A DNA stretch of 64,000 nucleotides from Craspedostauros australis. Taxonomy: Eukaryota; Bacillariophyta; Bacillariophyceae; Mastogloiales; Achnanthaceae. The notes below the pieces were generated by a model, which did not search any database, was not told where the DNA came from, and was given only the letters and a program-made list of their open reading frames with translations. Below are positions 1 through 37,919 of the stretch, in pieces (the stretch's first letter is position 1; every line of letters begins with the position of its first letter). The translations under genes and the position numbers were made by a program. The DNA is taken from positions 1 to 64,000 of the forward strand of contig JAMXDE010000038.1 of assembly GCA_026770025.1 (NCBI GenBank). The letters are read 5' to 3'.

Positions 1-3000
1 TCGTTGGCACCACTTGGAGCATTGCTGTCACCTTCGCTGCTTGGAGCGCTGCTCGGACTCGCACTCTCTGCTGTTGGTGATGCAGTGATGGTTGGGCTGG
101 CTGTGTTTGTTGGTGCGGATGAATGCGAGCTGCTGTCGTTGGCACCACTTGGAGCATTGCTGTCACCTTCGCTGCTTGGAGCGCTGCTCGGACTCGCACT
201 CTCTGCTGTTGGTGATGCAGTGATGGTTGGGCTGGCTGTGTTTGTTGGTGCGGATGAAGGCGAGCATTGCTGTCGTTGGCACCACTTGGAGCATTGCTGT
301 CACCTTCGCTGCTTGGAGCGCTGCTCGGACTCGCACTCTCTGCTGTTGGTGATGCAGTGATGGTTGGGCTGGCTGTGTTTGTTGGTGCGGATGATGGCGA
401 GCTGCTGTCGTTGGCACCACTTGGAGCATTGCTGTCACCTTCGCTGCTTGGAGCGCTGCTCGGACTCGCACTCTCTGCTGTTGGTGATGCAGTGATGGTT
501 GGGCTGGCTGTGTTTGTTGGTGCGGATGATGGCGAGCTGCTGTCGTTGGCACCACTTGGAGCATTGCTGTCACCTTCGCTGCTTGGAGCGCTGCTCGGAC
601 TTGCACTCTCTGCTGTTGGTGATGCAGTGATGGTTGGGCTGGCTGTGTTTGTTGGTGCGGATGAAGGAGCATTGCTGTCGTTGGCACCACTTGGAGCATT
701 GCTGTCACCTTCGCTGCTTGGAGCGCTGCTCGGACTCGCACTCTCTGCTGTTGGTGATGCAGTGATGGTTGGGCTGGCTGTGTTTGTTGGTGCGGATGAA
801 GGAGCATTGCTGTCGTTGGCACCACTTGGAGCATTGCTGTCACCTTCGCTGCTTGGAGCGCTGCTCGGACTCGCACTCTCTGCTGTTGGTGATGCAGTGA
901 TGGTTGGGCTGGCTGTGTTTGTTGGTGCGGATGATGGCGAGCTGCTGTCGTTGGCACCACTTGGAGCATTGCTGTCACCTTCGCTGCTTGGAGCGCTGCT
1001 CGGACTCGCACTCTCTGCTGTTGGTGATGCAGTGATGGTTGGGCTGGCTGTGTTTGTTGGTGCGGATGATGGCGAGCTGCTGTCGTTGGCACCACTTGGA
1101 GCATTGCTGTCACCTTCGCTGCTTGGAGCGCTGCTCGGACTCGCACTCTCTGCTGTTGGTGATGCAGTGATGGTTGGGCTGGCTGTGTTTGTTGGTGCGG
1201 ATGATGGAGCATTGCTGTCGTTGGCACCACTTGGAGCATTGCTGTCACCTTCGCTGCTTGGAGCGCTGCTCGGACTCGCACTCTCTGCTGTTGGTGATGC
1301 AGTGATGGTTGGGCTGGCTGTGTTTGTTGGTGCGGATGATGGCGAGCTGCTGTCGTTGGCACCACTTGGAGCATTGCTGTCACCTTCGCTGCTTGGAGCG
1401 CTGCTCGGACTCGCACTCTCTGCTGTTGGTGATGCAGTGATGGTTGGGCTGGCTGTGTTTGTTGGTGCGGATGATGGCGAGCTGCTGTCGTTGGCACCAC
1501 TTGGAGCATTGCTGTCACCTTCGCTGCTTGGAGCGCTGCTCGGACTCGCACTCTCTGCTGTTGGTGATGCAGTGATGGTTGGGCTGGCTGTGTTTGTTGG
1601 TGCGGATGATGGCGAGCTGCTGTCGTTGGCACCACTTGGAGCATTGCTGTCACCTTCGCTGCTTGGAGCGCTGCTCGGACTCGCACTCTCTGCTGTTGGT
1701 GATGCAGTGATGGTTGGGCTGGCTGTGTTTGTTGGTGCGGATGATGCGAGCTGCTGTCGTTGGCACCACTTGGAGCATTGCTGTCACCTTCACTGCTTGG
1801 AGCGTTGCTCGGACTCGCACTCTCTGCTGTTGGTGATGCAGTGATGGTTGGGCTGGCTGTGTTTGTTGGTGCGGATGATGGCGAGCTGCTGTCGTTGGCA
1901 CCACTTGGAGCATTGCTGTCACCTTCGCTGCTTGGAGCGCTGCTCGGACTCGCACTCTCTGCTGTTGGTGATGCAGTGATGGTTGGGCTGGCTGTGTTTG
2001 TTGGTGCGGATGAAGGAGCATTGCTGTCGTTGGCACCACTTGGAGCATTGCTGTCACCTTCGCTGCTTGGAGCGCTGCTCGGACTCGCACTCTCTGCTGT
2101 TGGTGATGCAGTGATGGTTGGGCTGGCTGTGTTTGTTGGTGCGGATGATGGCGAGCTGCTGTCGTTGGCACCACTTGGAGCATTGCTGTCACCTTCGCTG
2201 CTTGGAGCGCTGCTCGGACTCGCACTCTCTGCTGTTGGTGATGCAGTGATGGTTGGGCTGGCTGTGTTTGTTGGTGCGGATGATGGCGAGCTGCTGTCGT
2301 TGGCACCACTTGGAGCATTGCTGTCACCTTCACTGCTTGGAGCGCTGCTCGGACTCGCACTCTCTGCTGTTGGTGATGCAGTGATGGTTGGGCTGGCTGT
2401 GTTTGTTGGTGCGGATGAAGGAGCATTGCTGTCGTTGGCACCACTTGGAGCATTGCTGTCACCTTCACTGCTTGGAGCGCTGCTCGGACTCGCACTCTCT
2501 GCTGTTGGTGATGCAGTGATGGTTGGGCTGGCTGTGTTTGTTGGTGCGGATGATGGAGCATTGCTGTCGTTGGCACCACTTGGAGCATTGCTGTCACCTT
2601 CGCTGCTTGGAGCGCTGCTCGGACTCGCACTCTCTGCTGTTGGTGATGCAGTGATGGTTGGGCTGGCTGTGTTTGTTGGTGCGGATGATGGCGAGCTGCT
2701 GTCGTTGGCACCACTTGGAGCATTGCTGTCACCTTCACTGCTTGGAGCGCTGCTCGGACTCGCACTCTCTGCTGTTGGTGATGCAGTGATGGTTGGACTG
2801 GCTGTGTTTGTTGGTGCGGATGATGGAGCATTGCTGTCGTTGGCACCACTTGGAGCATTGCTGTCACCTTCACTGCTTGGAGCGCTGCTCGGACTCGCAC
2901 TCTCTGCTGTTGGTGATGCAGTGATGGTTGGGCTGGCTGTGTTTGTTGGTGCGGATGATGGCGAGTTGCTGTCGTTGGCACCACTTGGAGCATTGCTGTC

Positions 3001-6000
3001 GTTGGCACCACTTGGAGCATTGCTGTCACCTTCGCTGCTTGGAGCGCTGCTCGGACTCGCACTCTCTGCTGTTGGTGATGCAGTGATGGTTGGGCTGGCT
3101 GTGTTTGTTGGTGCGGATGAAGGAGCATTGCTGTCGTTGGCACCACTTGGAGCATTGCTGTCACCTTCGCTGCTTGGAGCGCTGCTCGGACTCGCACTCT
3201 CTGCTGTTGGTGATGCAGTGATGGTTGGGCTGGCTGTGTTTGTTGGTGCGGATGATGGAGCATTGCTGTCGTTGGCACCACTTGGAGCATTGCTGTCACC
3301 TTCGCTGCTTGGAGCGCTGCTCGGACTCGCACTCTCTGCTGTTGGTGATGCAGTGATGGTTGGGCTGGCTGTGTTTGTTGGTGCGGATGATGGAGCATTG
3401 CTGTCGTTGGCACCACTTGGAGCATTGCTGTCACCTTCACTGCTTGGAGCGCTGCTCGGACTCGCACTCTCTGCTGTTGGTGATGCAGTGATGGTTGGGC
3501 TGGCTGTGTTTGTTGGTGCGGATGATGGCGAGCTGCTGTCGTTGGCACCACTTGGAGCATTGCTGTCACCTTCGCTGCTTGGAGCGCTGCTCGGACTCGC
3601 ACTCTCTGCTGTTGGTGATGCAGTGATGGTTGGGCTGGCTGTGTTTGTTGGTGCGGATGAAGGCGAGCTGCTGTCGTTGGCACCACTTGGAGCATTGCTG
3701 TCACCTTCGCTGCTTGGAGCGCTGCTCGGACTCGCACTCTCTGCTGTTGGTGATGCAGTGATGGTTGGGCTGGCTGTGTTTGTTGGTGCGGATGATGGAG
3801 CATTGCTGTCGTTGGCACCACTTGGAGCATTGCTGTCACCTTCACTGCTTGGAGCGCTGCTCGGACTCGCACTCTCTGCTGTTGGTGATGCAGTGATGGT
3901 TGGGCTGGCTGTGTTTGTTGGTGCGGATGATGGCGAGCTGCTGTCGTTGGCACCACTTGGAGCATTGCTGTCACCTTCGCTGCTTGGAGCGCTGCTCGGA
4001 CTCGCACTCTCTGCTGTTGGTGATGCAGTGATGGTTGGGCTGGCTGTGTTTGTTGGTGCGGATGATGGCGAGCTGCTGTCGTTGGCACCACTTGGAGCAT
4101 TGCTGTCACCTTCGCTGCTTGGAGCGCTGCTCGGACTCGCACTCTCTGCTGTTGGTGATGCAGTGATGGTTGGGCTGGCTGTGTTTGTTGGTGCGGATGA
4201 TGGCGAGCTGCTGTCGTTGGCACCACTTGGAGCATTGCTGTCACCTTCGCTGCTTGGAGCGCTGCTCGGACTCGCACTCTCTGCTGTTGGTGATGCAGTG
4301 ATGGTTGGGCTGGCTGTGTTTGTTGGTGCGGATGATGGAGCATTGCTGTCGTTGGCACCACTTGGAGCATTGCTGTCACCTTCACTGCTTGGAGCGCTGC
4401 TCGGACTCGCACTCTCTGCTGTTGGTGATGCAGTGATGGTTGGGCTGGCTGTGTTTGTTGGTGCGGATGATGGAGCATTGCTGTCGTTGGCACCACTTGG
4501 AGCATTGCTGTCACCTTCGCTGCTTGGAGCGCTGCTCGGACTCGCACTCTCTGCTGTTGGTGATGCAGTGATGGTTGGGCTGGCTGTGTTGGTTGGTGCG
4601 GATGAAGGAGCATTGCTGTCGTTGGCACCACTTGGAGCATTGCTGTCACCTTCGCTGCTTGGAGCGCTGCTCGGACTTGCACTCTCTGCTGTTGGTGATG
4701 CAGTGATGGTTGGGCTGGCTGTGTTTGTTGGTGCGGATGATGGCGAGCTGCTGTCGTTGGCACCACTTGGAGCATTGCTGTCACCTTCGCTGCTTGGAGC
4801 GCTGCTCGGACTCGCACTCTCTGCTGTTGGTGATGCAGTGATGGTTGGGCTGGCTGTGTTTGTTGGTGCGGATGATGGAGCATTGCTGTCGTTGGCACCA
4901 CTTGGAGCATTGCTGTCACCTTCGCTGCTTGGAGCGCTGCTCGGACTCGCACTCTCTGCTGTTGGTGATGCAGTGATGGTTGGGCTGGCTGTGTTTGTTG
5001 GTGCGGATGATGGAGCATTGCTGTCGTTGGCACCACTTGGAGCATTGCTGTCACCTTCACTGCTTGGAGCGCTGCTCGGACTCGCACTCTCTGCTGTTGG
5101 TGATGCAGTGATGGTTGGGCTGGCTGTGTTTGTTGGTGCGGATGATGGAGCATTGCTGTCGTTGGCACCACTTGGAGCATTGCTGTCACCTTCGCTGCTT
5201 GGAGCGCTGCTCGGACTCGCACTCTCTGCTGTTGGTGATGCAGTGATGGTTGGGCTGGCTGTGTTTGTTGGTGCGGATGATGGAGCATTGCTGTCGTTGG
5301 CACCACTTGGAGCATTGCTGTCACCTTCGCTGCTTGGAGCGCTGCTCGGACTCGCACTCTCTGCTGTTGGTGATGCAGTGATGGTTGGGCTGGCTGTGTT
5401 TGTTGGTGCGGATGAAGGAGCATTGCTGTCGTTGGCACCACTTGGAGCATTGCTGTCACCTTCGCTGCTTGGAGCGCTGCTCGGACTCGCACTCTCTGCT
5501 GTTGGTGATGCAGTGATGGTTGGGCTGGCTGTGTTTGTTGGTGCGGATGATGGCGAGCATTGCTGTCGTTGGCACCACTTGGAGCATTGCTGTCACCTTC
5601 GCTGCTTGGAGCGCTGCTCGGACTTGCACTCTCTGCTGTTGGTGATGCAGTGATGGTTGGGCTGGCTGTGTTTGTTGGTGCGGATGAAGGAGCATTGCTG
5701 TCGTTGGCACCACTTGGAGCATTGCTGTCACCTTCACTGCTTGGAGCGCTGCTCGGACTCGCACTCTCTGCTGTTGGTGATGCAGTGATGGTTGGGCTGG
5801 CTGTGTTTGTTGGTGCGGATGAAGGAGCATTGCTGTCGTTGGCACCACTTGGAGCATTGCTGTCACCTTCGCTGCTTGGAGCGCTGCTCGGACTCGCACT
5901 CTCTGCTGTTGGTGATGCAGTGATGGTTGGGCTGGCTGTGTTTGTTGGTGCGGATGATGGAGCATTGCTGTCGTTGGCACCACTTGGAGCATTGCTGTCG

Positions 6001-9000
6001 TTGGCACCACTTGGAGCATTGCTGTCACCTTCACTGCTTGGAGCGCTGCTCGGACTCGCACTCTCTGCTGTTGGTGATGCAGTGATGGTTGGGCTGGCTG
6101 TGTTTGTTGGTGCGGATGATGGAGCATTGCTGTCGTTGGCACCACTTGGAGCATTGCTGTCACCTTCGCTGCTTGGAGCGCTGCTCGGACTCGCACTCTC
6201 TGCTGTTGGTGATGCAGTGATGGTTGGGCTGGCTGTGTTTGTTGGTGCGGATGATGGAGCATTGCTGTCGTTGGCACCACTTGGAGCATTGCTGTCACCT
6301 TCGCTGCTTGGAGCGCTGCTCGGACTCGCACTCTCTGCTGTTGGTGATGCAGTGATGGTTGGGCTGGCTGTGTTTGTTGGTGCGGATGAAGGAGCATTGC
6401 TGTCGTTGGCACCACTTGGAGCATTGCTGTCACCTTCGCTGCTTGGAGCGCTGCTCGGACTCGCACTCTCTGCTGTTGGTGATGCAGTGATGGTTGGGCT
6501 GGCTGTGTTTGTTGGTGCGGATGATGGCGAGCTGCTGTCGTTGGCACCACTTGGAGCATTGCTGTCACCTTCGCTGCTTGGAGCGCTGCTCGGACTCGCA
6601 CTCTCTGCTGTTGGTGATGCAGTGATGGTTGGGCTGGCTGTGTTTGTTGGTGCGGATGATGGAGCATTGCTGTCGTTGGCACCACTTGGAGCATTGCTGT
6701 CACCTTCGCTGCTTGGAGCGCTGCTCGGACTCGCACTCTCTGCTGTTGGTGATGCAGTGATGGTTGGGCTGGCTGTGTTTGTTGGTGCGGATGATGGCGA
6801 GCTGCTGTCGTTGGCACCACTTGGAGCATTGCTGTCACCTTCGCTGCTTGGAGCGCTGCTCGGACTCGCACTCTCTGCTGTTGGTGATGCAGTGATGGTT
6901 GGGCTGGCTGTGTTTGTTGGTGCGGATGATGGAGCATTGCTGTCGTTGGCACCACTTGGAGCATTGCTGTCACCTTCGCTGCTTGGAGCGCTGCTCGGAC
7001 TCGCACTCTCTGCTGTTGGTGATGCAGTGATGGTTGGGCTGGCTGTGTTTGTTGGTGCGGATGATGGAGCATTGCTGTCGTTGGCACCACTTGGAGCATT
7101 GCTGTCACCTTCGCTGCTTGGAGCGCTGCTCGGACTCGCACTCTCTGCTGTTGGTGATGCAGTGATGGTTGGGCTGGCTGTGTTTGTTGGTGCGGATGAA
7201 GGAGCATTGCTGTCGTTGGCACCACTTGGAGCATTGCTGTCACCTTCGCTGCTTGGAGCGCTGCTCGGACTCGCACTCTCTGCTGTTGGTGATGCAGTGA
7301 TGGTTGGGCTGGCTGTGTTTGTTGGTGCGGATGATGGCGAGCTGCTGTCGTTGGCACCACTTGGAGCATTGCTGTCACCTTCGCTGCTTGGAGCGCTGCT
7401 CGGACTTGCACTCTCTGCTGTTGGTGATGCAGTGATGGTTGGGCTGGCTGTGTTTGTTGGTGCGGATGATGGAGCATTGCTGTCGTTGGCACCACTTGGA
7501 GCATTGCTGTCACCTTCGCTGCTTGGAGCGCTGCTCGGACTCGCACTCTCTGCTGTTGGTGATGCAGTGATGGTTGGGCTGGCTGTGTTTGTTGGTGCGG
7601 ATGAAGGAGCATTGCTGTCGTTGGCACCACTTGGAGCATTGCTGTCACCTTCGCTGCTTGGAGCGCTGCTCGGACTCGCACTCTCTGCTGTTGGTGATGC
7701 AGTGGTGGTTGGGCTGGCTGTGTTTGTTGGTGCGGATGATGGCGAGCATTGCTGTCGTTGGCACCACTTGGAGCATTGCTGTCACCTTCGCTGCTTGGAG
7801 CGCTGCTCGGACTCGCACTCGCTGCTGTTGGTGATGCAGTGATGGTTGGGCTGGCTGTGTTTGTTGGTGCGGATGATGGAGCATTGCTGTCGTTGGCACC
7901 ACTTGGAGCATTGCTGTCACCTTCACTGCTTGGAGCGCTGCTCGGACTCACTCTCTGCTGTTGGTGATGCAGTGCTGGTTGGGCTGGCTGTGTCTGTTGG
8001 TGCGGATGATGGCGCATTGCTGTCGTTGGCACCACTTGGAGCGCTGTCACCTTCACTGCTTGGAGCGCTGCTCGGACTCGCACTCTCTGCTGTTGGTGAT
8101 GCAGTGATGGTTGGGCTGGCTGTGTTTGTTGGTGCGGATGAAGGAGCATTGCTGTCGTTGGCACCACTTGGAGCATTGCTGTCACCTTCGCTGCTTGGAG
8201 CGCTGCTCGGACTCGCACTCTCTGCTGTTGGTGATGCAGTGATGGTTGGGCTGGCTGTGTTTGTTGGTGCGGATGATGGAGCATTGCTGTCGTTGGCACC
8301 ACTTGGAGCATTGCTGTCACCTTCGCTGCTTGGAGCGCTGCTCGGACTCGCACTCTCTGCTGTTGGTGATGCAGTGATGGTTGGGCTGGCTGTGTTTGTT
8401 GGTGCGGATGATGGCGAGCTGCTGTCGTTGGCACCACTTGGAGCATTGCTGTCACCTTCGCTGCTTGGAGCGCTGCTCGGACTCGCACTCTCTGCTGTTG
8501 GTGATGCAGTGATGGTTGGGCTGGCTGTGTTTGTTGGTGCGGATGATGGAGCATTGCTGTCGTTGGCACCACTTGGAGCATTGCTGTCACCTTCGCTGCT
8601 TGGAGCGCTGCTCGGACTCGCACTCTCTGCTGTTGGTGATGCAGTGATGGTTGGGCTGGCTGTGTTTGTTGGTGCGGATGAAGGAGCATTGCTGTCGTTG
8701 GCACCACTTGGAGCATTGCTGTCACCTTCGCTGCTTGGAGCGCTGCTCGGACTCGCACTCTCTGCTGTTGGTGATGCAGTGATGGTTGGGCTGGCTGTGT
8801 TTGTTGGTGCGGATGATGGAGCATTGCTGTCGTTGGCACCACTTGGAGCATTGCTGTCACCTTCGCTGCTTGGAGCGCTGCTCGGACTCGCACTCTCTGC
8901 TGTTGGTGATGCAGTGATGGTTGGGCTGGCTGTGTTTGTTGGTGCGGATGATGGCGCATTGCTGTCGTTGGCACCACTTGGAGCATTGCTGTCACCTTCG

Positions 9001-9411
9001 CTGCTTGGAGCGCTGCTCGGACTCGCACTCTCTGCTGTTGGTGATGCAGTGATGGTTGGGCTGGCTGTGTTTGTTGGTGCGGATGATGGAGCATTGCTGT
9101 CGTTGGCACCACTTGGAGCATTGCTGTCACCTTCGCTGCTTGGAGCACTGCTCGGACTCGCACTCTCTGCTGTTGGTGATGCAGTGATGGTTGGGCTGGC
9201 TGTGTTTGTTGGTGCGGATGATGGCGAGCTGCTGTCGTTGGCACCACTTGGAGCATTGCTGTCACCTTCGCTGCTTGGAGCGCTGCTCGGACTTGCACTC
9301 TCTGCTGTTGGTGATGCAGTGATGGTTGGGCTGGCTGTGTTTGTTGGTGCGGATGATGGCGAGCTGCTGTCGTTGGCACCGCTTGGAGTACTGCTGTCAC
9401 CTTCGCTGCTT
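1..9411. repeat. 135-bp tandem array (about 69 copies), coding minisatellite
   Basis: A 135-bp unit repeats head to tail from the left edge to about 9411, where it passes into non-repeated coding sequence. Copies are nearly identical. On the minus strand the meaningful frame gives a 45-residue Ser/Pro/Ala/Thr unit that includes SSAPTNTASPTITASPTAES and EGDSNAPSGAND. Two junction alleles alternate, read on the plus strand as ggagcattgctg and ggcgagctgctg, giving DSNAPSS or DSSSPSS. Two copies carry an extra 27-bp partial unit (near 2990 and 5990). Length changes that shift the frame lie near 262, 1743, 5550, 7740 and 7949; a 3-bp loss near 8041 keeps frame. Because the unit is a multiple of three, long frames also stay open on the plus strand and in a second minus frame; these are treated as shadows. 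The array continues beyond the window. Confidence 0.97.
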
Positions 9412-12400
9412 GGCGCTTGTGACCCTGTTGCTATTGGGGATGGTGGGAATGTTGGGCTGCCTGTCTCTCCAAGCTCGGTTGGGTTGCTGGACACACTGTC
9501 GTTTGGCGACTGCGTGGATGGTGGAAACGTTGGACTATTGGTGTCGCCTTGTCCCGTTGGTGAGTTGGTCTCTTGGGTCGGATTTGGGCTGGTTGATGGT
9601 GGGAATGTGGGCTGACTTGTTCCATCCTGCGTCGTGGTTGGGTTCACGCTTCTTTGTTCTGCTGTGGTAGGTGCATTGGTCGTCTGTGGGCCTTTCGTTG
9701 GCTCCTGGCTGATGGATGGTGGAAACGTTGGCTGGCCCGTTTCCTGCACTTGCGTCGGCGGTTGTGTTTCCTGGGGAGCTGCGGTGGGAAGTGGAACTGG
9801 CACCTCGGTCGGTGACCTTGTGCCGTCGATTATTGTTGGGTTTGCTGTTGGAGCTTCTGTGTCGATGATCGTGAAGTTAACCTCTTGCACGATTTCCTCG
9901 TCGTCTGTGCTCTGTATGTAAGCGACAAAAATTCGAACGAACCCACCAGGCAGTTGCTCTTCCTCCACAAGCTCCTCAACCTGAATGTCGAATCGTTGGA
10001 CGAAGGCTTTGAAAAGTTGCGTTTGGTCGAGAAGGTTCACGCCAAGCTGAAGTTGTCTGTGACGCTGACGTTCCTTCTTTTCCTGTTCTTCACAACTGCC
10101 AAGGTACCGACATGAGAAGTCGTTGATGGCCGATGCCATCAATCGGCGGCCTTCCTCTTTGGGTGGAATGTCTTCTTCTCTGACAGAGAACAGAGGCTCA
10201 TTCTCAATGCAACCGACACATTCCACCGTGCTGTTGAATCGAATCTCGGTTCCTGTTGTGGTAACGTCACCAAATGTCTGGTTCAAGAATATCTGCTCCG
10301 TCAGCGTTGAATTCATCATCTGCCTTTCGTAGATGGAGTCACAGCCACCGACAACGTCGTTGTATGCTTCAATCAACAGATCTTCCAGAATGGCTGTCTC
10401 GTTTCCAATGAACTGCCGCTCAAAACCTTGCAACACCAGAGTCACAGACCCTGGAAAGAGGCTTGGGTTGAGGGTTCCGCATGATGAGGTGATGCCTGTG
10501 CTGCCTGACACAACGGCTGCAACCCCGACGGCTGCTGCAGATACGGCAGCTGCAGAAACCACAGCAGCTCCAACCGCCTGTGCTGAGCCGGCGGCAACAG
10601 ATGCGGCTGCTGCTCCTGTGGCCGCGGCGCCAGCAGCAGCTCCAGCGGCTGTGCCCGCAGCGACTGAGCCAGCCGCATTCGAAGCGGCCTGTACTGCCAT
10701 TTGCTGCAAGACCAGCTCGCCACCGCTCGGTGGTGGAGCAACAGGTGGAGCAGCCCCAGCTGCGCCGCCGCCAGTGGCAACGCCTCCATCGCCGGATAAC
10801 ATCAAGCCACCTCCATCGTTCATATTCTGTCCTGATGTCACGAGTCCTGGATCCATTGCTATATCATCCTGCTCGCTAGGGAGACATGATGATATGATCC
10901 TCCACAAGACCATGCCAATACTAACCGCAGCCACAAACAAGAGTGTCAAGAAGCCCTGTGCTTGTTCGGATTCATCATCGGACCCATCACCTGTCCGTCC
11001 ATCGTGCGAAAGTTCTTCGTCAGCAGTGTGATTGTCTCGCTTGCTGTTGTCGTTATCGTCTTCGTCGATGTATGCTGGATCATCGTAGAACTCTTCAGTT
11101 TCGTGGCTTCCTTGGTGGCTGCCATTGTCCTCCACGACGCGGCCTTCTTCATCGGTCTGGAAAGAAAAAATGCACTGGTATGGTTGCTGGTTGACGAGCA
11201 CGTCCTCTGTCTGTTGGCCATCGCCTCTATGTGCATTGGCCTCATAGCTCTCAAGCGACATGGTGCTGCGGTGCAGTGCCGCCCTCTCTCGGTGGACCCG
11301 GAACTTGTGCTGGATCAACAGGGCCGCTTCCTCGGATCGTTCCAGCATACGGATGGCACCGGTGCCCCTTGCGACACCCCTGTAGACAGGAGGGATGATG
11401 AGATAGATGCAATGTAAATGCAATGCAAATGCAATGGAATTTGAAAGACTGACGGTGTCAGATAAGCGGGCATTCAATGATCCCCAAGAAGATTGGACTC
11501 TACTTCGTTGATCAGCGTGCCTCGCTGCGTTTTCGGGTACAGCTTTGCATCGCTCCCAACCCCACGACGTATGTGCGCAGCGTCGCGAGATGGTACGTGT
11601 TCAGCGCAGCGAGACGCGTTGCAATTTGGCTCCACTTACCTATTCAAGCGACGGGACCGTTCCATCATCGATTCGCTCCGAACTGACGAATCCACCGTCC
11701 AATTGTCGCGCAGAATCGTCCTGGTGTTGATGAAGAGAAGTGTTGGCGCAAGATACGATTGGGAAGATTGGAAGAAAGGGGAGGAGTAGGATGTGAGACA
11801 AAAGGGAGATGCAAGAAAAGTGCTTCATCCCACCAGTCGGTGTTTACGACGAATTGAACATCGGTGACTGTTCGTGGAATGATCGCCAGGGCGTGTTGAT
11901 GACTTACTGTGTGATCCTGCGAGATCGCTCGTGCGCTGTTTCGCTCCGCAACGTTGCGTCCATGGATCGGAGGTTGATGCTGGTGATGATGGCAGCGATG
12001 GTGACGGAGGTGGTGACAGTGGTGATAATGGTGATCGCGGTGGAAGTGGGCATCGTTACGAATGTGTTGAGAGCATGGCAATGAAGCGAACGTGGAATGG
12101 AGAAGCGCGGATGTCAGAAATGCTATTGCGTGTTCCATGTTGTGTGTTGCGTGTACTTGTGCATAACATAGGCGAAGTGACAATCGCCCTCTTTGGGCCC
12201 ATCATCATCGCGACAGCCTTACCTTCTATCCTCTCGGCGCGAGCCTTCCGTGAATCGATCGCCGCTTCGGATGGATGTGTCCATACTCATCGCGTCTCGG
12301 CTTGGGTGAGAGAATGCACGGAGTATACAGTGGCATGTGTGTACGAGTATAGAGCAGAGCAGAGCAGAGCATAGTACAGTCGTGTTGTGTTGTGTTGTGT

Positions 12401-14010
12401 TGTGTTGCGAAGCGTTGTGAAGTGGAGTGTTGTTGTATTTGAGGATGGAAATGTAGAAGCGAGTAGGATCAAACAAGGTGTGAGTACATGGTCTGGAGCG
12501 CATGGTCTGGAGTGCATGATGCGAAATGGTTGTTACATTGGATTCATAAGAAACGACGATTCGACGGTGTGTCTTCAGCGCCACGTACCTTCGCGCACGC
12601 GCGCGAGACGATCTGGGCATGTTGAATCGAGTTGCGGCTGTGTGGAAGCTTTCGTCTCGAATGAGCGGACCCTGAGGTTGTGCCAACGGGATCATCCGAA
12701 ACAAATCGAAATCCGCATTCGCTTCTTTTTCTGCCTGCCTTTCTGCCTCTATCTCTGCGTCCATCTCCGCGATCTCCCTTTCGAGCCGCAAAATCTCTGG
12801 GTCCATCTCGGGTTCTGGGATCGGTACGGTTGGTGTCACTGCAAGTCGCGACAGGTCCACGTTTTGAGCGACGGCATTGATGTAGTCTGGGATCGAGCCG
12901 TACTGCGGATTGGATCGCAACCATTCCGTCATCTGGTCGATCGTCCTGGAAGTTCCCGGCTGGTAGAGCTCGGCCGGAGTTAAGGTCGACGAAGCTGGCA
13001 CCGACGAAGAATTCTCAGCCGTTGGTTGTGAAACTTCCTGCCGTTCGAAGGAAGGGCGCGAAATTCGTGGTGCGGCTACTGGGTTGGCTGCGTTCTGAGT
13101 TTCGGTGATATGGGACCAGCCTTGCCTCACAGGTACGGTGCCAGCGTTCTGAAGCGATGAAAATGTGCTTGCATCAGAAAGGCCGCTTACTTGACGAGGC
13201 AACGCGCCCGCCAGGTTGCCTGCACCCTGCGTATGGAATCCGGGTTGGCCACTCCTGGTTGCATCGTGTCCGCGTCCATGTTCACGTCTGCGCTCGTTTT
13301 GTTCGGTGGTGAAATTGGTGGTGAGTTGGTGAGTTGATTCCGTCGATCCAGCACGATCATGTGTCAGCCAGCGTTGCATCCATGCGTCGATCCGTCCATT
13401 GATTGATTGATCCGTCCATTGATCCGTTCGTTCGTTCGCCAATCCGTGCGTGCATCCATGAATCCATTTCGAAGTCCGTCGATCATGACGCCGTTGGTCG
13501 AAGCCAGATTCCATCCATCAGTAAATAGCATTCGCCAGAAGGATTCATTCCAAAGAGTGTTGTTGTCCAATGGAGGAGAGAATGTTCATGAAAATGTTGA
13601 TGAGACAGCTTTCCTCTGTGCTGTCATCTTGACGCTGCTCAGCATCACCGTCACATGCACATTCTCGGGCATGAGTTCAGTCCATACACCTACGAGTATG
13701 GATGGCAATCCGTGTCAAACACAGCCGTGCCTGTGTGGACAAGTGCGTATTCGATCCATCCTTCGATGATCCATCCTTCGATGACACGCACGTTGCTCCA
13801 GCATGGGCCACCGGAGTCAAAGGCACTGGATTGAAAGACTCTGGCGATCTACCAGGCGAAAGACACTTGTGGTAGACAGGTAGACAGGTAGACAGGTAGA
13901 CAGGCAAGCGCAACTCACCGTTCGGACTCGTTGAACGAGGCGTCTGATCCCATGAAACTTTCATCATCACTTGCCACGTTCGACATGTGGAAGCCGTTCC
14001 TGCTGCTCAT
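7923..14010 (-). CDS. Single-pass membrane protein with mucin-like Ser/Thr/Pro repeat ectodomain
   Basis: Function unknown; probably a cell-surface or wall-associated protein. Proposed exons are 14010-13919, 13287-12589 and 11379-7923 (1415 residues). Donors are GTGAGT and GTACGT, and the phases match at both joins. In order: an acidic/polar N-terminal region, a charged helix rich in E and A (about 210-240), an IQ-like motif (LIQHKFRVHRER, about 285-296), an acidic stretch, a membrane helix (about 406-426), a Gly/Ala-rich stretch, a Cys-containing globular part, four PTFPPS blocks, then the 45-residue repeat from about residue 920. The frame ends at a stop at 7923, just after a 2-bp loss near 7949; the array continues upstream of that in window coordinates. 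Intron 2 (1209 nt) is long for this region, so two genes or a missed exon are possible. An upstream in-frame ATG at 14187 would add an Asn/Asp-rich extension. Confidence 0.72.
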
Positions 14011-15738
14011 GATGGCCTCCTTGTCGTCGTCGTCGTCGTCGTTGTTGTCGTTGTTGTCGTTGATTAGCTGTTGGTGGTTGCTGTCATTGATTTTCCTCTC
14101 CGTCTCTCTCCCTCCTGTTCGATTCCGTTGCCGTTGTGCGATATGCTGTGTATGCCTTGAATCAATTTTCACTCGAACCAACTTCACCCTGGGGTCTCCC
14201 TCCTGTCAACTCGATACTTCCCCCTCCTTGCTTTGATCCAGTCGTACCAATACTCTGCCGCTGCTCTTGCCGAAGCTCCCACTCTAATTCGTGGCGTGTT
14301 CAATCTGGTGCTGCTGTGCTTGCTGCGACTCAATTTACTCCTGTGTAATCTCGCTCTCTATCTGTCTATCTATCTATCTCTGTTTGCGTCTCAGGGGGGT
14401 TGGTGAGGAGAGCTGAACCTGATCGTAGTTGCGTCGTGCCCTGGTTATGGCTCTGCACCCCTTGTTGGTTGTGTGTCTCTGTTCGCGTCTCTTCTTGTGT
14501 CTCGCTTGGTCACTTCCAACACACTTGTTGTGCGACACGGTTGTGTGCTGGCGAGGACACCAACGGAACAGACGCAGAGAGAGACACCTCTCTCTCTCTC
14601 TGCCGACCACCATGTTTGCCACGCAATGGGCCAGCTTTCTGTCTTCGTGTGGCTTCTTGGTCCGCCAAACCTCCACGGTTCGTCTGTTTTGCTGTCAGTC
14701 GCATCGCTTGAAGAACACACGCGGTTTGATGTGGTGTGGCAACATTGCGCAACGCAACAATCGATGAGAAACCGCGCTTTTGCGCCAACGCCACACAAGC
14801 GCCACGAGCGAGCAAAGGAGGGCCACACTTTAAGCCGAAATTGATAAAGTCCTCCCACACCCAGTCCTTGTATTACAACGTATATCCGGCGAAATATTCG
14901 ATCCATTCCGTTTTTGATATCCCCGTTGGTATAAGATGGTACGTGCGTCTTGACGAAGAACACCCCCGAACGAACACGACCCAAATCACAAACCACATAT
15001 CATGAGCGCCCTTCAGATTCTCCTTTTGTCGCCTGGAAGAACAGTCGATACCTATTGTGCGATGCTGTACATTTTATCAATGAAGCCCAACAAAATATGA
15101 CGAGCAGTTGGACACACAAAATGACGATTGAGGAGAGAATAGATTTCTCTCACTTGGTACTTGGGAATAGCGGAAAGGCACAAGCTGACGCTCCGTCAGG
15201 TTCCGCAAAAACAAACTAAAATGTTACAAGGTGATTGTTCGTGAAAAACGAGAAAAAAGTCACTACGACGTTGTCCTTGAAGGCCTGAGTAAGCACGATT
15301 CACACAACCCAGCAAACACGATCCGTTCACCATCGGTCGCCTGTCAGACGCATATCTGATCTCAGACGAGAGCGGTTTCATTTTAAAAAATGTCACGAAA
15401 AATGACTGTCCGTCATGCGACAGATGTGAGGAAACCAACGTCATTCCGCTCTTTTATTCCGAGTGGTCAAACTCATGACTCAGACAGAAACATCGTGTCA
15501 ACCACAAAATCTTAGACGAACGCACATCACCACAAACACACATCAAATTCAGCCAAGATCTTCTTTTGACAACCACGACGGTTGGATGCACACAACTGAT
15601 CATCCATCTGTTCATCTGTTCATCCATTCATCCATCCATCTATCCATCGATTCATCCGTTGGCACATCCGTCAAGACCTCACAAATTCTGCCACCATACC
15701 GTTACATCTGCCTCCTCTGTCAAGACGCGGCTCCAAGA

Positions 15739-15771
<33 letters not shown>

Positions 15772-15953
15772 TACGAGTACTCCTGAGTGCAACCAATACA
15801 GATTCCAATCGGAGACATCAGCAACTTCACAAACGCAGACGAACGAACGAACGAACGAACGAACGAACGAACGAGATGAATCGCCAACTGGGACAGTCCC
15901 ACCACAAACGGCAACAGCAACGAACGAGGACATCGCTGAAGTCCACACGCATT
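14011..15953. other. Divergent intergenic region with simple repeats
   Basis: This region lies between two divergently transcribed genes and should hold both promoters. Visible simple repeats are a GTC/GTT tract (about 14022-14060), a short TCTA tract (about 14357-14380), ATCC-type repeats (about 15598-15660), GAGCAC repeats (15741-15770) and a GAAC tetranucleotide run (about 15838-15874). Short open frames on both strands show no recognisable protein. No RNA gene was seen. Confidence 0.6.
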
Positions 15954-18900
15954 ATGATGTCAGGATTGGCTCTGTGCGCCTCCACGGGGGCCAGGCAAGG
16001 TGTGCGGGCATGGCAGTCGACTGTCGTCCGTTCCTCCAGAGCTTCCGTTTCTGCGTTTGCGTCGACTGCTGCTTCGCGCCGAACCAACAAGCTGAGGAAG
16101 AGCACGACCGGCTTTGCACCGCCGACTTCTGCAGCGCCATCCGCCGCGTTCGGAATCGGGAACAGCAGAATGCTCACCACGCTTTCGTCTGCTGTTGAGG
16201 ATGCCGCAGCCGAAACCTCCATTGCCGAGGCTTACGATCTCATCAACAAGAGCAAGGGGTTGGAGGGATCGTACGATCCGTCGGAGTTCGAGAAGGACAT
16301 CTACACCTGGTGGGAGAAGTCACAGTGCTTCTCTCCCGACGCCAAGCACAGCAACGACAATGGCAAGCAACCGTACGTCCTTCCCATGCCACCACCCAAC
16401 GTCACCGGACGCTTGCACATGGGCCACGCCATTTTCGTTGCGTTGCAGGACGTCCTGGCGCGTTTCCACCGCATGAGAGGCCGTCCCGTCTTGTGGCTGC
16501 CCGGGACGGATCATGCCGGCATCGCCACGCAACTTCAGGTCGAAAAGCAGCTCATCGCAGAAGGCACCACACGCGAAGAAGTCGGACGTGAGGAGTTCTT
16601 GGACCGCGTTTGGAAGTACAAGGAGGAGCAGGGCGGTCACATCACGCGCCAGCTGCGATCGCTCGGAGCGTCCGCCGATTGGACCCGCGAGAGATTCACC
16701 ATGGACAAGGACTTGAGCGACGCCGTGTCCGAGGCGTTCGTGCGCCTTCACGAGAAGGAATTGGTCTACCGCGGAGAGTACATGGTCAACTGGGCACCCA
16801 TGCTCAAGACCGCTGTCAGCGACCTTGAGGTCGAGTATTCCGAGGAGGAAGGCAAGCTCTACTTCTTCAAGTACAACGTCGACGGCAGCGATGGTGAGTG
16901 TTGGAGTGCGCTTTGCATATGTGTGCAAGAACGGATCAGTCCAGATTTTTGGTGTTTCCGCACATTGCGATTTCCCACTTGCTTCAAAACCAGAATTGCT
17001 CGCGCAACTTTGTTCCACTCTTCTCGACTCACACTCGAAATTCAAAACTCAAATTCACACTCGACTGTCCCAACATCGACATAAACGTTTCAACTCCTGC
17101 TTCGATCACAGAATTCCTGCCAGTTGCGACAACCCGTCCCGAAACCATCATGGGAGACACGGCTGTGTGCGTGCATCCGGACGATGAGCGCTACAAGCAT
17201 CTTGTTGGCAAGGAGGTCGTTGTGCCCATGAGCGACGGCAGGAAGATCCCCATCATCGCAGATGACTATGTCGACATGGAGTTCGGAACAGGCGCATTGA
17301 AGATCACGCCAGGACACGATCCTAATGACTATGCCATCGGCAAGAAGCACGATCTCCCCATCATCAACATCATGAACAAGGACGGGTCTTTGAACGGTAA
17401 CGCTGGAGAATACAACGGGTTGGATCGCTTCGACGCGCGCGAAAAGCTGTGGAGCGACATGGAATCCAGCGAATTGACAATCAAGGTGAAACCGCACACC
17501 CAGCGCGTTCCCAGATCGCAGCGCGGTGGAGAGGTCATCGAGCCGTTGGTCAGCAGCCAATGGTTCGTCAAGACGAAGGGCATGGGGTCCAAGGCCCTCC
17601 AGGCCGTGGAGGACGGCGACGTCCAAATCGTCCCCAAGCGATTCGACAAGATCTGGAACAACTGGCTGGAAGATATCCACGATTGGTGCGTGTCGCGACA
17701 GCTTTGGTGGGGACATCGCATCCCGGTGTGGTACGTTGGCGAGTACGGTTCCAGCGAGTACATCGTCGCCAGAAATGACGAAGATGCAAAGACCAAGGCC
17801 ATCGAGATGGGACACCCGGAATCCGTGCAACTCTTCCAGGATGAGGACGTACTCGATACGTGGTTTAGTTCCGGGCTTTGGCCATTCGCCACAGTGGGGT
17901 GGCCACACAACGAGCACGAGGCAGATTCCGATCTCGCGAGATTCTATCCGGCCACATGCCTCGAAACAGGATACGACATCCTCTTCTTCTGGGTGGCCCG
18001 AATGGTCATGATGGGGATTGAACTGACGGGAAAGAGCCCATTCAGCGTCGTTTACCTTCATGGCCTCGTACGTGCTGCGGATGGTACCAAGATGTCAAAG
18101 ACGAAGGGCAACGTCGTGGACCCGCTTGACACAGTCGCTGAGTACGGTGCAGACAGTTTGCGATACTCCTTGGTCACAGGCGTGACGCCAGGACAGGTAC
18201 GTTTTCTTCGTGTGTGAAAATACCGTGCAAATCCTGCGTCAGTACGACGATGAGTGTTGTGACATGCTGTGTCGTGATGCGTTACGCTGTGATATGCAAA
18301 GTAAAGGCACGACCATACTCTGCTACTCCCACTGCGCATCCTCCAATTTCAGCATGTCCTCGAGTTTCATCTCACCAGTCCATTTCACATGTGCTGTGTG
18401 TGTTCCTCACGGTGATTTGTCATTCACAAATCATTTGCGGGTCACTTCTGTCGCTTACTCCACTCTACTCTACTTGACAGGACATCCCGCTGAACATGGA
18501 AAAGATCGCTGCCAACCGCAACTTTGCAAACAAGCTCTGGAATTGCTGCAAGTTTGTGACTCAGAATGCCCTGAAGAATGTCGGGGAGGAGGAGCTGAAT
18601 GGACTGGGCGTCACGGGACCAATCACCAGCGAGGAATTCGACACCATGCTGCTGCCAGAACGATACATCATCTCCAAGCTCCACATCCTTGCCGAGGACA
18701 TCACCGGTGACATCGAGAGATACCAGCTGGGCGCCGCTGGCAGCAAAATCTACGAGTTCCTGTGGGATCAATTCGCTGACTGGTACATCGAGATTTCGAA
18801 GACGCGCCTCTACGAAGGTGCTGGCGGCACGTCCGAGGAGGACGCAAAGCAGGCGCGCCGCGTCCTCGTGTACGTGCTGGACTCCAGCCTGCGGTTGCTC

Positions 18901-19536
18901 CATCCGTTCATGCCATACGTGACCGAAAACCTCTGGCATCATCTGCCACGTGCCGATGCCAACGGCGACCAAGCAGCACATTCGTTGATGCTGGCCGACT
19001 GGCCGCAGATGGAGGACCAGTCCCTGGTGAAGTGTCAATCGACCATCGAGACGTTCGAATGCTTCCAGGCCCTGACGCGAAGTATCCGCAACGCCCGCGC
19101 GGAGTACAACGTCGAGCCAGGCAAGCGCATCGGCGGGTTCGTTGTTGCATCTGGCGAACTGAAGGAGGAGCTTGAGAAGGAGCTGAAATCGTTGGTGGCG
19201 CTCGCCAAGCTCGATGTCGGCAGCGTTGCCATCTACGAGGCTGGCAGCGACGAGGCGAAGGCGCTGAACAACGACGAAACCATCCAGCTGGTCATCCAGG
19301 ATGGAGTGGAGACGTACCTGCCATTGTCGGGATTGATCGACAAGGAGAAGGAGGAGGCCCGGTTGAAGAAACAGCTGAAGAAGCTCTCCGCCGAGATCGA
19401 AAAACTGAGCAAGAGGTTGGACTCTCCAGGTTTCGCAGAGAAGGCACCCCCGGCCGTTGTCGACAAGGCCAAGAATGAGCTGTCGGAGTTGCAGGACCAG
19501 GAAGAGAAGGTGAAGGAATCCTTATCGACTCTCTAA
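15954..19536 (+). CDS. VARS: Valyl-tRNA synthetase (class Ia)
   Basis: Charges tRNA-Val with valine. Exons are 15954-16893, 17112-18196 and 18481-19536, giving 1026 residues, with donors GTGAGT and GTACGT and in-phase joins. The class Ia signature HMGHA is at about 155-159 within PPPNVTGRLHMGHA, and KMSKTKGN begins at about 640. The editing-domain region contains ATTRPETIMGD. The C-terminus is a charged coiled coil (the tRNA-binding arm typical of ValRS), containing KEKEEARLKKQLKKL. The first 70 or so residues are Arg/Ser/Ala-rich with almost no acidic residues, as in organelle targeting. ATG codons at 15954 and 15957 fit a targeted form; an in-frame ATG at 16170 starts just before the conserved body and could give a cytosolic form. 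An upstream ATG at 15876 is also in frame. Confidence 0.95.
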
Positions 19537-19720
19537 AGACGAGACCTGGGTGAATCAGCGGGACAGTATTGGCAGTAGCACTTCCAAATAATAATGAGGC
19601 ACGATCCCTTCTCAGTCTTATTAGTATTTCTGCCTCGTCTTGAATCCATGAAAGAGCATTGTTTCTGTACCGTGTGTTGCGAAGAGAGCGGCTCCTCTGC
19701 ACTCGTATTAGTCATAGTAG

Positions 19721-19730
19721 CAGCAGCAGC

Positions 19731-19769
<39 letters not shown>
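19721..19769. repeat. CAG/TAG trinucleotide microsatellite
   Basis: A run of four CAG units passes into about twelve TAG units, 3' of the valyl-tRNA synthetase gene. The stretch 19537-19936 otherwise shows nothing recognisable and probably holds the 3' ends of the flanking transcripts. Confidence 0.9.
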
Positions 19770-19770
<1 letters not shown>

Positions 19771-19936
19771 CTAGTAGACTAGCCTGCGGACGATTTCTAG
19801 AGCGTGTTGTTTCGCTGTCACCGGCGGAATTGTTTTTTCGTTCATCGATTTGCACTTGGTCGTGAGTGCGGATTGTGCACAGGAACAACGCGGCAGATGT
19901 CCTTGAAGTTCTTCAGCACACGTGCCAAGTGAACGC

Positions 19937-20213
19937 TTACTGCCTTTCCTGCTTGGGCGCGAAGAAACTCTTCGGGTTGAGAGGGTTGGTGGGACCACAG
20001 ATGTTGAGTTCTGTGGTGTGAGGAACATCCACCTCTCCCCTCTTCGCACTCACCTTCGGCAGCCGCACGAGAGAGCACTGGGATCACAATATAATAATAG
20101 GGTACTGTTGAAGCCTCGGCTGCGATCGCAACCAAAGCATCCAAAACATCGAATGCAACAAAAACAACAGGAGCAACCAGACAGACACGCTCGCACAACG
20201 TACCAATACGCAC
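19937..20213 (-). CDS. Possible small two-exon gene, unrecognised
   Basis: Very tentative. Exons 20213-20054 and 20010-19937 join in phase through a consensus donor (GAAG then GTGAGT) and a CACCACAG acceptor, giving 77 residues. The N-terminus is hydrophobic (about residues 8-35, for example VVFVAFDVLDALVAIAAEA), and the second exon encodes a polar tail ending in NPKSFFAPKQERQ. The 43-nt intron is shorter than all other introns inferred here (80 nt or more), and no family is recognised. It may equally be the 5' flank of the large gene starting at 20287. Confidence 0.2.
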
Positions 20214-20286: not shown

Positions 20287-21579
20287 ATGCGTTCCATGCG
20301 CCCCATCGACGACGTCCATGACGCTGTTGGCATCACAGATGATGGTAACGATAATGACAACGATGATGACGTGACTGATTCCGACGATGCCGCAGTCGCA
20401 GGTTCTTCTTCGGGCGCGGAGACGATCTCGTCGATGTCAAGAGCCGACGCAGACGCAGACGCAGGCAGAAGCACGATCTCATCGATCACTGGCGTCACCA
20501 CAAGTGCGAGCACAGGCGTTCACACTGCTGGAGATGCGTCTGACTCTGGCGATACTGGCAGCGGTACATGCAGCGTCGCTTCGGGTGGCCACCAGCATGA
20601 TGGCGCGAGCAACAGCGAAGTGGATGCGATGAGCCAGCCAAGCGGCGACAGCGACAGCACACAAAGCAAGAAAGATGAGCAGACGGTATCCACTTCCGGC
20701 GTCTCAAGCCTCGGCCAAAACGACCATCTGCGAACACGCAATGATGATAGCTGCGATGACCATAGCAACGACAATTATGATGATGCAACAGAGCAACATG
20801 GCGAGAGCCGAAGGCGCGTCCGTCTCGGTGAGGTCGCCAGCACGACTGCCCACACTGCAGATGCAAGATACCAAAACTCCAGGCACGACAAAGGTGACAA
20901 CGACGACGGTACTAAGATCACGAACGGACGTGACCGCGGTCAGAAGTCCGGAGGTTCGCACGATTCCAAGCATGCGTATCCACGCTGCGACCATGATCCT
21001 CAGGCAACACTGGCCTACGAAGGCGAGAGACAGAACAAGAGCAACATTCGCGCAGCGGCGGAGAGAGAATTCGATAGAAAGCACGAGAAGGACCTGGCGG
21101 CAATTCAAAATGTCGACAATGTCGAGGCAGACCCAAAGACAAGGCAGAACAACACCATCTCGCAACAGGTCCGCAACACCAACAACAATTATCACCAAAA
21201 TTCACGGCATGGCAGACTCAACCCTATCGTGGCGCGAGACTCGTTGGACGGTGTTGGCACGGGCGTTCTCGACGCACCCGCTAGCGCGCCATTAGATGAT
21301 CGGATGCGGCGCGGGCAAGACGAGGCTCCAGGATCCAATACGCATGGCATGCATGCGGCGACGGCGCATGTTGGCCCCCGCCCCCAAGACGAACGCATGT
21401 ACGCCGCTCACCTGTACGATGACTTCGTCGATGACGACACGCTTGGTCCGCAGCTCCACGACGGCAACGGAACTGACGATCTTTCACTCCCGCGTGCCTT
21501 TTTGCCGGCATCGATGCGTATCCAATCCGGCCGTCACCATTCGCACCAGCCAAGTGCCACAACATCCAACAACCATCAA

Positions 21580-21629
<50 letters not shown>

Positions 21630-27600: not shown

Positions 27601-28266
27601 GGCGCGATGGTATTATCTTCTGCCCATGCGGATGGCTCATACATATGGCACGGTTCCATCTCGTGGCAGAGTACGTTGGGCGAGCCATACTTCATCCGCA
27701 TCTCTGCTGTTCAATCCGATGAAAATGTTGGGAACAGCACCGAAGATGATGCTGAAGCCTCCGCTCGTCCCCGTGCGACGAACAGCAATACATCATCAGG
27801 CGGGTCGTTGGTATCGGTTGAAGTCAAGCCGGCGGTGATCAACGACCATTGCGAACGTGCAACTCTTCTGCACGAAGGCGACGAACTGCAAGGCAGCACG
27901 GCATTGGCAATGATCGATGATATTGATCTTTGCCAAGCACGTGGGTATCCAACACGACCTTCCACACGTTCCGATTCACCTGGTGTATGGTACAAGATTC
28001 TTTCATCCGACCTGCAAAGGACGCACTGGGGAATGCGGGTTACATTGTGTGAACTCATCAAGGATTTCAGAATGGCGATCTTTGTTGGTGATGATTGCAA
28101 CAATCTCAGATGCCTCGAGACTGCGGGCAAAAACACGATCGCATCCTGCGTGACATCTGATTTCCCGAAGGACATCGACGGAGACGTCTATCTTTTGCTT
28201 TCTGCAGAGTTCCGGACTGGAAATTTCCGCTTGAAGATTGACGAGCTGTACTTTTGGGATGTGTGA
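20287..28266 (+). CDS. Giant type II membrane protein with about 12 repeated Cys/WY ectodomain modules
   Basis: Function unknown; likely a surface-exposed protein of 2659 residues in one uninterrupted exon. Residues 1-618 are acidic, Ser/Asp/Asn/His-rich and low in complexity, with a GN dipeptide run near 433-448. A membrane helix follows at about 619-644 (AMCACIVLSIIVGIVMLTSA). The outer 2000 residues hold about 12 related modules of about 150 residues. Each has a start like ND-x-C-x-x-A, a central PGVWYTVVGDG-like core followed by a Cys-containing strand, a VYSGxCxxLxC-like strand, and an aromatic Y-[FIV]-[ILV] strand near the end. The paired cysteines suggest disulfide-linked beta-sandwich domains (inference), resembling WY-core modules found in secreted marine microbial and algal proteins. 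The lack of a cleavable signal and a cytosolic N-terminus imply type II topology. The next ATG downstream (20296) is a possible alternative start. Confidence 0.85.
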
Positions 28267-36847: not shown

Positions 36848-37919
36848 GGTTGTTGTTATTGCTGTTATTGTTATTGTTATTCTAGTATTGTTCAATACAA
36901 GACAATACAACAATACAATGTTGTGTGATATGATATGCCGCTGTCAACTGCAGTTTGTGCTGCTGTTGGTATCAATGTTGCTCTGCTCTACTCTGCTCTG
37001 CTCTGCTCTTTGGAATCAACATGCGCTGCACTCCACCTCCCTCGTTTCGGCATTGGCTGTCTATCTCTGTCTCTGCCTCTGTGTTTGTGTGTCTCTGTCT
37101 CCCTCCTTTCTGCCTTCTTCTGTTTCTGACTTGTTGTGGACTTTATTCTCCTCCACGAACCTCCTTGCTACTTGTGGCAGCCTGGAACTCTCAACCACCA
37201 GATGCCGATTGTGCTGCATCTCCGTGCAACTTTGGGCCGATTGGCGCCAAAGTCGGAGGTGTTCCTGCCATCGTGGCGACGCAGTAGTCTCCCAGCCTAA
37301 TAAATCCACATTTCGCCGCGTGTCTGCTAAATGATGAACATGTGTCGTACACTTCAGTCCTCTTCCCTACCATGACACTCGTCACGAATCTCCGTGATCA
37401 TGTAGCCCCTCGTGACTTGTGTCACAGACAATCGGTTTCGCCGCGATTTTTATCCTGCATGGAGCGAACACCACGCAATCCGCGTTTATCGTGTCTGCAG
37501 CGACATTCTTTCTAGCAAGACGTTTCGGTGTGGAACCAGGAGACACAGCCTCCTTCTTGTCACTCAGAACTCGTGGAAGTTGTCGCGTCACCTGATGTAG
37601 GCGGACGTGTTTGTCCGTGTTGGATCGTTCGCTGATCGTGGATCCTTTTGGTCGTGACCGTGGGTACAAATCTTTTCGCGATGTGCGTTTGTGACAGTTT
37701 GCGATCTTTCCGCGTTGGTGTTCTGTCCGCATCTTCTGTCATCGACCACCCACCAACAATCACGATGTGGAAGCACTTTGGATCTTGCCGACACCATCGC
37801 TTTGTATTTCTTGGCATTGCAATACCCATGATCACAGATGGGTGCATAGTTGCAATCCACTCCGCACTTCACATGCCACACTCCTCCAATTCAACTATTC
37901 TACAATTCCAATAGAGACG
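36848..37919. other. Divergent intergenic region
   Basis: About 1.07 kb between a minus- and a plus-strand gene, presumably with both promoters. It contains pyrimidine-rich stretches (CTCTG repeats about 36979-37010 and 37064-37115). No gene or RNA was recognised. Confidence 0.5.

Follow-up and report, generated by a model that had tools for sequence, protein, structure and literature searches.

The repeat gene at the start of contig C36

The window analysed here is a 64,000-bp stretch comprising positions 1 to 64000 of contig C36, in a genome of 90 contigs (74.8 Mb) that was searched throughout. Base 1 of the window is also base 1 of the contig. At this end lies a minus-strand gene, referred to as the C36 gene, in which an N-terminal exon leads into a long tandem array of modules rich in Ser, Ala, Pro and Thr. 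The features of the gene are as follows.

1..9413, minus strand: tandem array of 135-bp units in ~69 copies, each coding for a 45-residue module rich in S/A/P/T; the contig end truncates it at base 1
231..367, minus strand: unit 2 bp long, frame-breaking, contains AATGCTCGCC
1718..1851, minus strand: unit 1 bp short, frame-breaking
5524..5660, minus strand: unit 2 bp long, frame-breaking, contains AATGCTCGCC
7578..7849, minus strand: double unit, 2 bp long, frame-breaking, contains the hybrid string AATGCTCGCC
7850..8114, minus strand: double unit, 5 bp short, frame-breaking; the N-terminal open frame stops near 7926
9415..9833, minus strand: linker with four PTFPPS motifs (codon-pattern matches at 9439, 9517, 9595 and 9715)
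9834..10487, minus strand: Cys-containing membrane-proximal domain with several N-glycosylation sequons; no Pfam match and no PDB match better than E 0.014
10140..10148, minus strand: R-R-L tripeptide, its R and L invariant in 4/4 aligned paralogues (R-x-L)
10488..10712, minus strand: Ala-rich hydrophobic segment, kept in 4/4 aligned paralogues
10881..10955, minus strand: predicted transmembrane segment (by hydropathy only)
10959..11348, minus strand: acidic N-terminal tail with no hydrophobic run; translation likely starts at the Met at 11348, though there may be an exon upstream
11277..11315, minus strand: IQ-like motif IQHKFRVHRERAA, below the Pfam cut-off

Tandem Repeats Finder reports a single array at 1–9413 with a 135-bp period throughout and 97–98% matches. 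Its top row, a 405-bp period that would suggest a higher-order repeat, was rejected as three 135-bp units, and the order of unit types has no lag above shuffles (maximum 0.29 versus 0.355 at 95%). An exact 26-base anchor was found 67 times in the array. It delimits 66 full intervals, two of which are double units, and a partial unit lies at either end; hence the ~69 near-identical copies counted by the initial annotation are borne out. Two units are longer by 27 bp with the frame kept, while the 59 units of exactly 135 bp comprise 13 distinct sequences with 11 variable columns. Each unit encodes 45 residues, PTITASPTAESASPSSAPSSEGDSNAPSGANDSNAPSSAPTNTAS, composed of 28.9% Ser, 20.0% Ala, 15.6% Pro and 11.1% Thr, and 18 of the 45 residues are Ser or Thr, in agreement with the Ser/Thr/Pro/Ala-rich module first described. 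In the sense frame, variation at eight of the 11 columns leaves the residue unchanged. Two of the three non-synonymous columns come from a four-column swap between variants NAP and SSP, and the third occurs in a single unit. No second copy of the 135-bp array was found elsewhere in the genome. The array had been said to leave the window. It is indeed incomplete, and what cuts it is the end of contig C36, not merely the window edge. Neither window positions 1–20000 nor the C21 stretch described below contains a doubled TTAGGG or CCCTAA that would mark a telomere at the contig end.

From the likely Met at 11348, the predicted protein consists of an acidic tail of ~130 residues, a hydrophobic segment, a Gly-rich stretch, an Ala-rich hydrophobic segment, a Cys-containing domain, four PTFPPS linkers, and the array. 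A splice-acceptor-like sequence was seen by eye just upstream of the Met, so an extra 5′ exon is possible; in the frame as read, hydropathy shows no hydrophobic stretch in the first 128 residues. The hydrophobic segment spans residues 129–158 with a peak Kyte-Doolittle value of 2.23, which upholds the proposed link to a membrane protein. It shares one open frame with the first repeats, and this frame is uninterrupted in the paralogues C1 and C55. The PTFPPS codon pattern has 27 matches in the genome, four of them here, and its reversed control has 11 genome-wide. Single matches therefore mean little, while four within 300 bases in one frame do mean something. The array was originally described as PTFPPS-flanked; the four linkers are present, and within the window they lie on its N-terminal side only. 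In the tail, S-E-x-A-x-x-x-I-Q-x-x-F-R occurs near the N-terminus of all three relatives having this region, with I-Q-x-x-F-R aligned in 3/3. The invariant R-x-L comes behind the membrane segment instead of a signal peptide, and these family proteins contain additional R-x-L tripeptides.

A PDB sequence search with the N-terminal alignment returned four unconvincing matches (best E 0.014), and one with the alignment of the C-terminal domain described below returned a single unconvincing match (E 1.1). The single-sequence AlphaFold model of the membrane-proximal domain has a mean pLDDT (predicted local distance difference test) of 34.7. By eye the strand/helix order of this low-confidence model recalls a SEA domain; a Pfam search up to E 5 found none, and no such claim is made.

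Paralogues and the end of contig C21

A genome search with the 476-residue N-terminal query identified four loci, namely C36 itself, C55, C1, and C13. C55 is 47% identical over residues 10–476 (E 6.6e-105) and has an open frame of 3958 residues rich in Pro, Thr and Ser (PTS-rich). C1 is 44% identical over residues 44–360 (E 8e-59), and its PTS-rich open frame of 8620 residues encodes an 806-kDa polypeptide. C13 is 39% identical over residues 184–315 (E 1.7e-6), with an open frame of 3401 residues and PTS-rich sequence onward to 484,000, the end of the stretch read. When the C1 membrane-proximal domain was used as the query, only C1, C55, and C36 were matched at E up to 1, and C13 was not. The C13 locus (463961 to beyond 484000) has a different cytosolic tail, ~45 copies of a 156-bp unit and ~85 copies of a 111-bp unit, and its frame is broken several times within the 111-bp part. 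Cys is absent from the slices taken of the C36 unit and of the C21 and C55 arrays, and amounts to 0.0% in that of C1.

The C55 and C1 frames close with a common domain of ~130 residues that has conserved Cys and is 46% identical between the two. As a query, this C-terminal domain matched C55, C1, a frame of 5519 residues on contig C21, and a small protein on contig C3, all at E 1.8e-24 or better. Three more matches at E 0.04–0.25 contain stops and were dropped. A bacterial origin of the domain was considered and set aside after a scan of prokaryote genomes with one peptide pattern gave one match, none confirmed. The last array blocks of C55 (259261–271134) and C1 (3302614–3328473) are nearly alike by eye, whereas the folded domains are only ~45% identical; it looks as if repeats had been exchanged or conserved between the two genes.

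The small protein (C3:2090741–2091598, minus strand, locus L047) is Lys/Ser-rich and carries the C-terminal domain of the giant family. It begins with a hydrophobic, signal-like stretch (by eye), followed by R-Q-L and a Lys/Ser-rich stretch before the domain. It contains six K-x-x-K motifs, compared with a mean of 1.9 in 2000 shuffles (P 0.0035). We take this layout to be that of a silaffin-like wall protein. K-x-x-K and R-x-L are given as traits of such proteins in PMC5647440.

The C21 frame lies at 1078914–1095470 on the minus strand. Contig C21 has 1,095,471 bases, so the frame begins within one base of the last; the contig ends inside its 162-bp array (99%). Its N-terminus is absent and the conserved C-terminal domain is present. 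The C36 gene has no C-terminus, the C21 frame has no N-terminus, and their orientations are complementary. Among the four N-terminal loci and the four C-terminal loci at E 1.8e-24 or better, only C36 and C21 are at a contig end. The two ends also have a repeat motif in common. The C21 frame has 97 occurrences of the protein motif GD[ST][NS]AP, the C55, C1, and C13 frames none. A 29-base degenerate DNA pattern covering both arrays has 116 genome matches, all on the minus strand, with none for the reversed control; a slightly looser pattern has 48 matches in the C21 array and 68 in C36, 116 together. In BLASTP without composition correction, two joined C36 units scored 72.4 bits with C21, compared with 61.6 for C55, 60.8 for C1, and 55.5 for C13. 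The divergence fits as well, in that C36 and C55 are 47% identical at the N-terminus while C21 and C55 are 44–45% identical at the C-terminus. Because the missing halves are complementary, the orientations fit and the motif is private to these ends, C36 and C21 are very probably two parts of one gene with a gap between. The joined gene would have at least 3782 + 5519 = 9301 codons and encode a polypeptide of ~868 kDa or more, as estimated from composition.

A membrane-anchored giant and its alternatives

We interpret the C36 gene as encoding a giant membrane-anchored, mucin-like diatom protein that is split over two contigs, with a probability of about 0.75; this figure is for the identity of the protein, not for any use of it. 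On this view, the array forms the N-terminal portion of an extended ectodomain, in a family of at least four genes. Four things read from sequence underlie the interpretation, namely the array, the layout of the N-terminal part, the paralogues, and the private repeat motif common with the C21 end. Specifically, the N-terminus would lie inside, its acidic tail being short, cytosolic and furnished with the IQ-like motif. The transmembrane segment and the Cys-containing membrane-proximal domain would hold a P/T/S/A chain of thousands of residues, which is probably O-glycosylated and extended and would end in the small Cys-containing C-terminal domain encoded on C21. Such a chain may reach micrometres and could serve as an adhesive, extracellular-matrix or protective surface fibre. 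The invariant R-x-L site could allow the ectodomain to be clipped from the membrane.

Several observations weigh against this interpretation. A Pfam scan of the N-termini of C36, C55, and C1 and of the C-terminal domains of C55, C1, and C3 returned nothing over the cut-off. The IQ-like motif is sub-threshold, with 15.1 bits for PF00612 in the C1 paralogue (cut-off 20.3, E 0.02) and 13.5 bits for IQ_SCN5A_C in C36 (cut-off 27.7, E 0.053); C55 has no IQ profile match, and a stricter IQ regular expression fits one of four sequences, that of C36. It is also possible that the Ala-rich segment crosses the membrane a second time, in which case the tail would lie on the side of the array. We prefer an odd number of spans because the sequons and R-x-L point to a lumenal membrane-proximal domain. 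The genome search gave no C-terminal domain match on C13, and the domain is therefore demonstrated for only part of the family. Nor do the units of C36 and C21 agree in sequence or length (135 versus 150–162 bp). In the array, antisense frame −1 is likewise stop-free, with 7/11 variable columns synonymous compared with 8/11 in the sense frame, so the substitution test alone is weak for strand. Finally, the assembled frame is interrupted in five stretches, by −5, +2, +2, −1 and +2 bp, and the open frame from the N-terminal exon stops near 7926.

The anatomy of the protein is open to two uses, as an adhesive or mucilage fibre and as a wall coat. The size class and the giants with CAA domains in the genome, described below, favour adhesion. 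The wall use would make it a protein of the frustule coat or biosilica, with the ectodomain clipped at R-x-L and the C-terminal domain docking in the wall to give a mucin coat. It is favoured by the invariance of R and L in all four paralogues and by the small C3 protein, in which R-x-L and six K-x-x-K motifs precede the same C-terminal domain. According to PMC5647440, R-x-L had as of 2017 been reported only in biosilica-associated proteins. However, R-x-L is short, PTS-rich surface proteins may use it too, further copies occur in the family proteins, and the invariant one follows a membrane segment instead of a signal peptide. We regard the wall use as possible, though less likely than not.

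An improbable alternative is that C36 and C21 are two different genes, each lacking an end by chance. The difference between their units speaks for it, and no read or map connects the contig ends. Against it stand the private motif, the complementary orientations and missing parts, and the position of these two loci alone at contig ends. C13, the other locus without a C-terminal match, lies inside its contig.

It is also unlikely that the C36 gene is decaying or truncated, with real breaks, a protein ending after ~10 repeats and the remainder a non-coding satellite. The five frame-breaking stretches and the stop near 7926 are what such a gene would present. However, the net length change over the five stretches is 0, and three of the five breaks contain the identical hybrid AATGCTCGCC. 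This string, present in all three +2 cases, blends the variants that are common, namely AGCAATGCTCC, with 38 exact copies when the next four bases are included, and AGCAGCTCGCC, with 23. The reciprocal blend (AGCAGCTCCA or AGCAGCTCCT) has no copy. Such a pattern is expected of consensus mixing, although a real cross-over of the two variants at their shared CTC could yield the same string. Exact recurrence among 400 random 100-mers amounts to a fraction of 0.84 for C13, 0.83 for C36, 0.69 for C1, 0.66 for C21, and 0.09 for C55. Hence the two most self-identical arrays, C13 (in its 111-bp array) and C36, are broken, and the C1, C21, and C55 frames are open throughout. The match is imperfect. Self-similarity explains the broken frames only partly, because C1 is also fairly self-identical and the 45-copy array of C13, at 98%, is unbroken. 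We infer that the breaks are mostly consensus errors of the assembly, made where reads of near-identical units were mixed at the contig end. As for a gene on the opposite strand, a plus-strand hydrophobic frame is open over long parts of the array, and it was rejected because the homology of the conserved N-terminal exon fixes the minus strand as coding.

Relation to known surface proteins and to gliding

The genome is that of a diatom, as 88 pieces match the silicon transporter profile PF03842. The best 25 of these are near full length and stop-free, and the others are split, partial or contain stops; groups lie on C2, C3, C10, and C61. The family seems to have expanded greatly, with some of its copies broken. 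The CAA domain PF20597, which we take to be a mark of the Trailins of raphid diatoms, has eight matches in the genome and none in 14 control genomes. Two of them (C23:371210–372049 and C12:22142–22996) lie inside single open frames of 9808 and 8027 residues, the size class of CaTrailin4. The diatom is likely raphid, and the case rests on the CAA domains. The single VWD match in the genome is a poor fit to the abundance of a VWD-bearing family in raphid species, as described in PMC7335047, and the 20 pieces matching myosin heads are non-discriminating. The initial annotation called the array extreme for a single gene. This is too strong here, since open frames of 8620, 5519 (cut by the contig end), 9808, and 8027 residues, four in all, carry PTS arrays or CAA domains elsewhere in the genome. 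The annotation also proposed that the locus may be a fast-changing one at the cell surface.

CaFAP1 of the frustule coat of Craspedostauros australis is reportedly mucin-like, with alternating Cys-rich and PTS-rich regions as in gel-forming mucins. The C36 family is like it in having P/T/S-rich, mucin-like regions on a diatom surface protein. Unlike this architecture, and unlike gel-forming mucins, the family arrays do not alternate Cys-rich with PTS-rich parts, being essentially Cys-free over thousands of residues, and a membrane anchor is present. As in transmembrane mucins, the anchor of the C36 protein is in frame with the PTS repeats. Animal transmembrane mucins of the MUC1/MUC16 type have a cytosolic tail, an anchor, a membrane-proximal folded domain, and long PTS tandem repeats, and the C36 protein has the same set of parts. 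It differs from them in having no SEA domain detectable by Pfam and in its polarity, which would be opposite with the N-terminus inside. PMC11420354 describes CaTrailin4 (~900 kDa) and Ca5609 (>1 MDa) as giant modular adhesive-trail proteins of C. australis. The C36 family resembles these trail proteins in size class, with C1 at 806 kDa and C36 plus C21 at the composition-based estimate above, and in residing in a genome with CAA matches in frames of 9808 and 8027 residues. However, a profile search of the genome placed no CAA domain at C36, C21, C55, C1 (3.30–3.33 Mb) or C13. Because the domain is absent from the family loci, the C36 protein, judged by its predicted sequence, is not a Trailin. 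In PMC5647440 and PMC5525289, the TpSAPs and Silicanin-1 are small diatom silica-vesicle membrane proteins with a signal peptide, a C-terminal cytosolic domain and R-x-L. By these descriptions, the C36 protein is like them in being transmembrane and having R-x-L, and shares a Ser-rich lumenal part with the SAPs; it is unlike them in that they are small, with a C-terminal cytosolic domain, and perhaps in that they have a signal peptide. Here R-x-L follows the membrane segment, and the ends of C55, C1, and C21 are a Cys-containing domain behind the array.

A literature search found no relevant account of PTFPPS, of PTS-rich adhesive transmembrane proteins or of mucin-like tandem repeats in diatoms; the gene may still be in print. 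The C36 protein may be Ca5609, CaFAP1 or a published relative. Giant modular and mucin-like diatom surface proteins are already known, and the anchored form with an IQ-like tail and a C-terminal domain is, as far as the literature was reached, a variant.

Two other frames in the window were noted. The first (20287–28266, plus strand) has 2659 residues with an acidic N-terminus, a hydrophobic segment, and many CD..A...GxWYxVxGxG repeats (by eye). Its only Pfam match is a sub-threshold GBD_T9SS_assoc (E 0.00033, 21.3 bits, cut-off 27), and it is possibly a second type of anchored surface protein nearby. The second (32789–36913, minus strand) has 1374 residues, contains an AAA_16 ATPase domain (E 1.3e-16) and in this resembles a signalling or sensor ATPase.

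According to the introduction of PMC10547550, a 2023 motility paper, the supposed route by which myosins push on extracellular mucilage is a transmembrane protein that “has yet to be identified”. By the account in PMC11420354, giant modular trail proteins would be long enough to bridge the raphe slit of 300–500 nm. It is a long shot that the C36 family supplies, as a whole or through one of its members, the transmembrane connector of raphid-diatom gliding. If so, the IQ motif of the tail would serve as a docking site for calmodulin or myosin light chains on the actin side, and the ectodomain of thousands of residues, long enough for the raphe slit, would pass the myosin force to the adhesive trail. 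The locus also illustrates how one gene can come to lie in halves on separate contigs when an assembly breaks within a very long coding array. With their membrane anchor and IQ-like cytosolic tail, the giants of this family provide genes to tag and remove.

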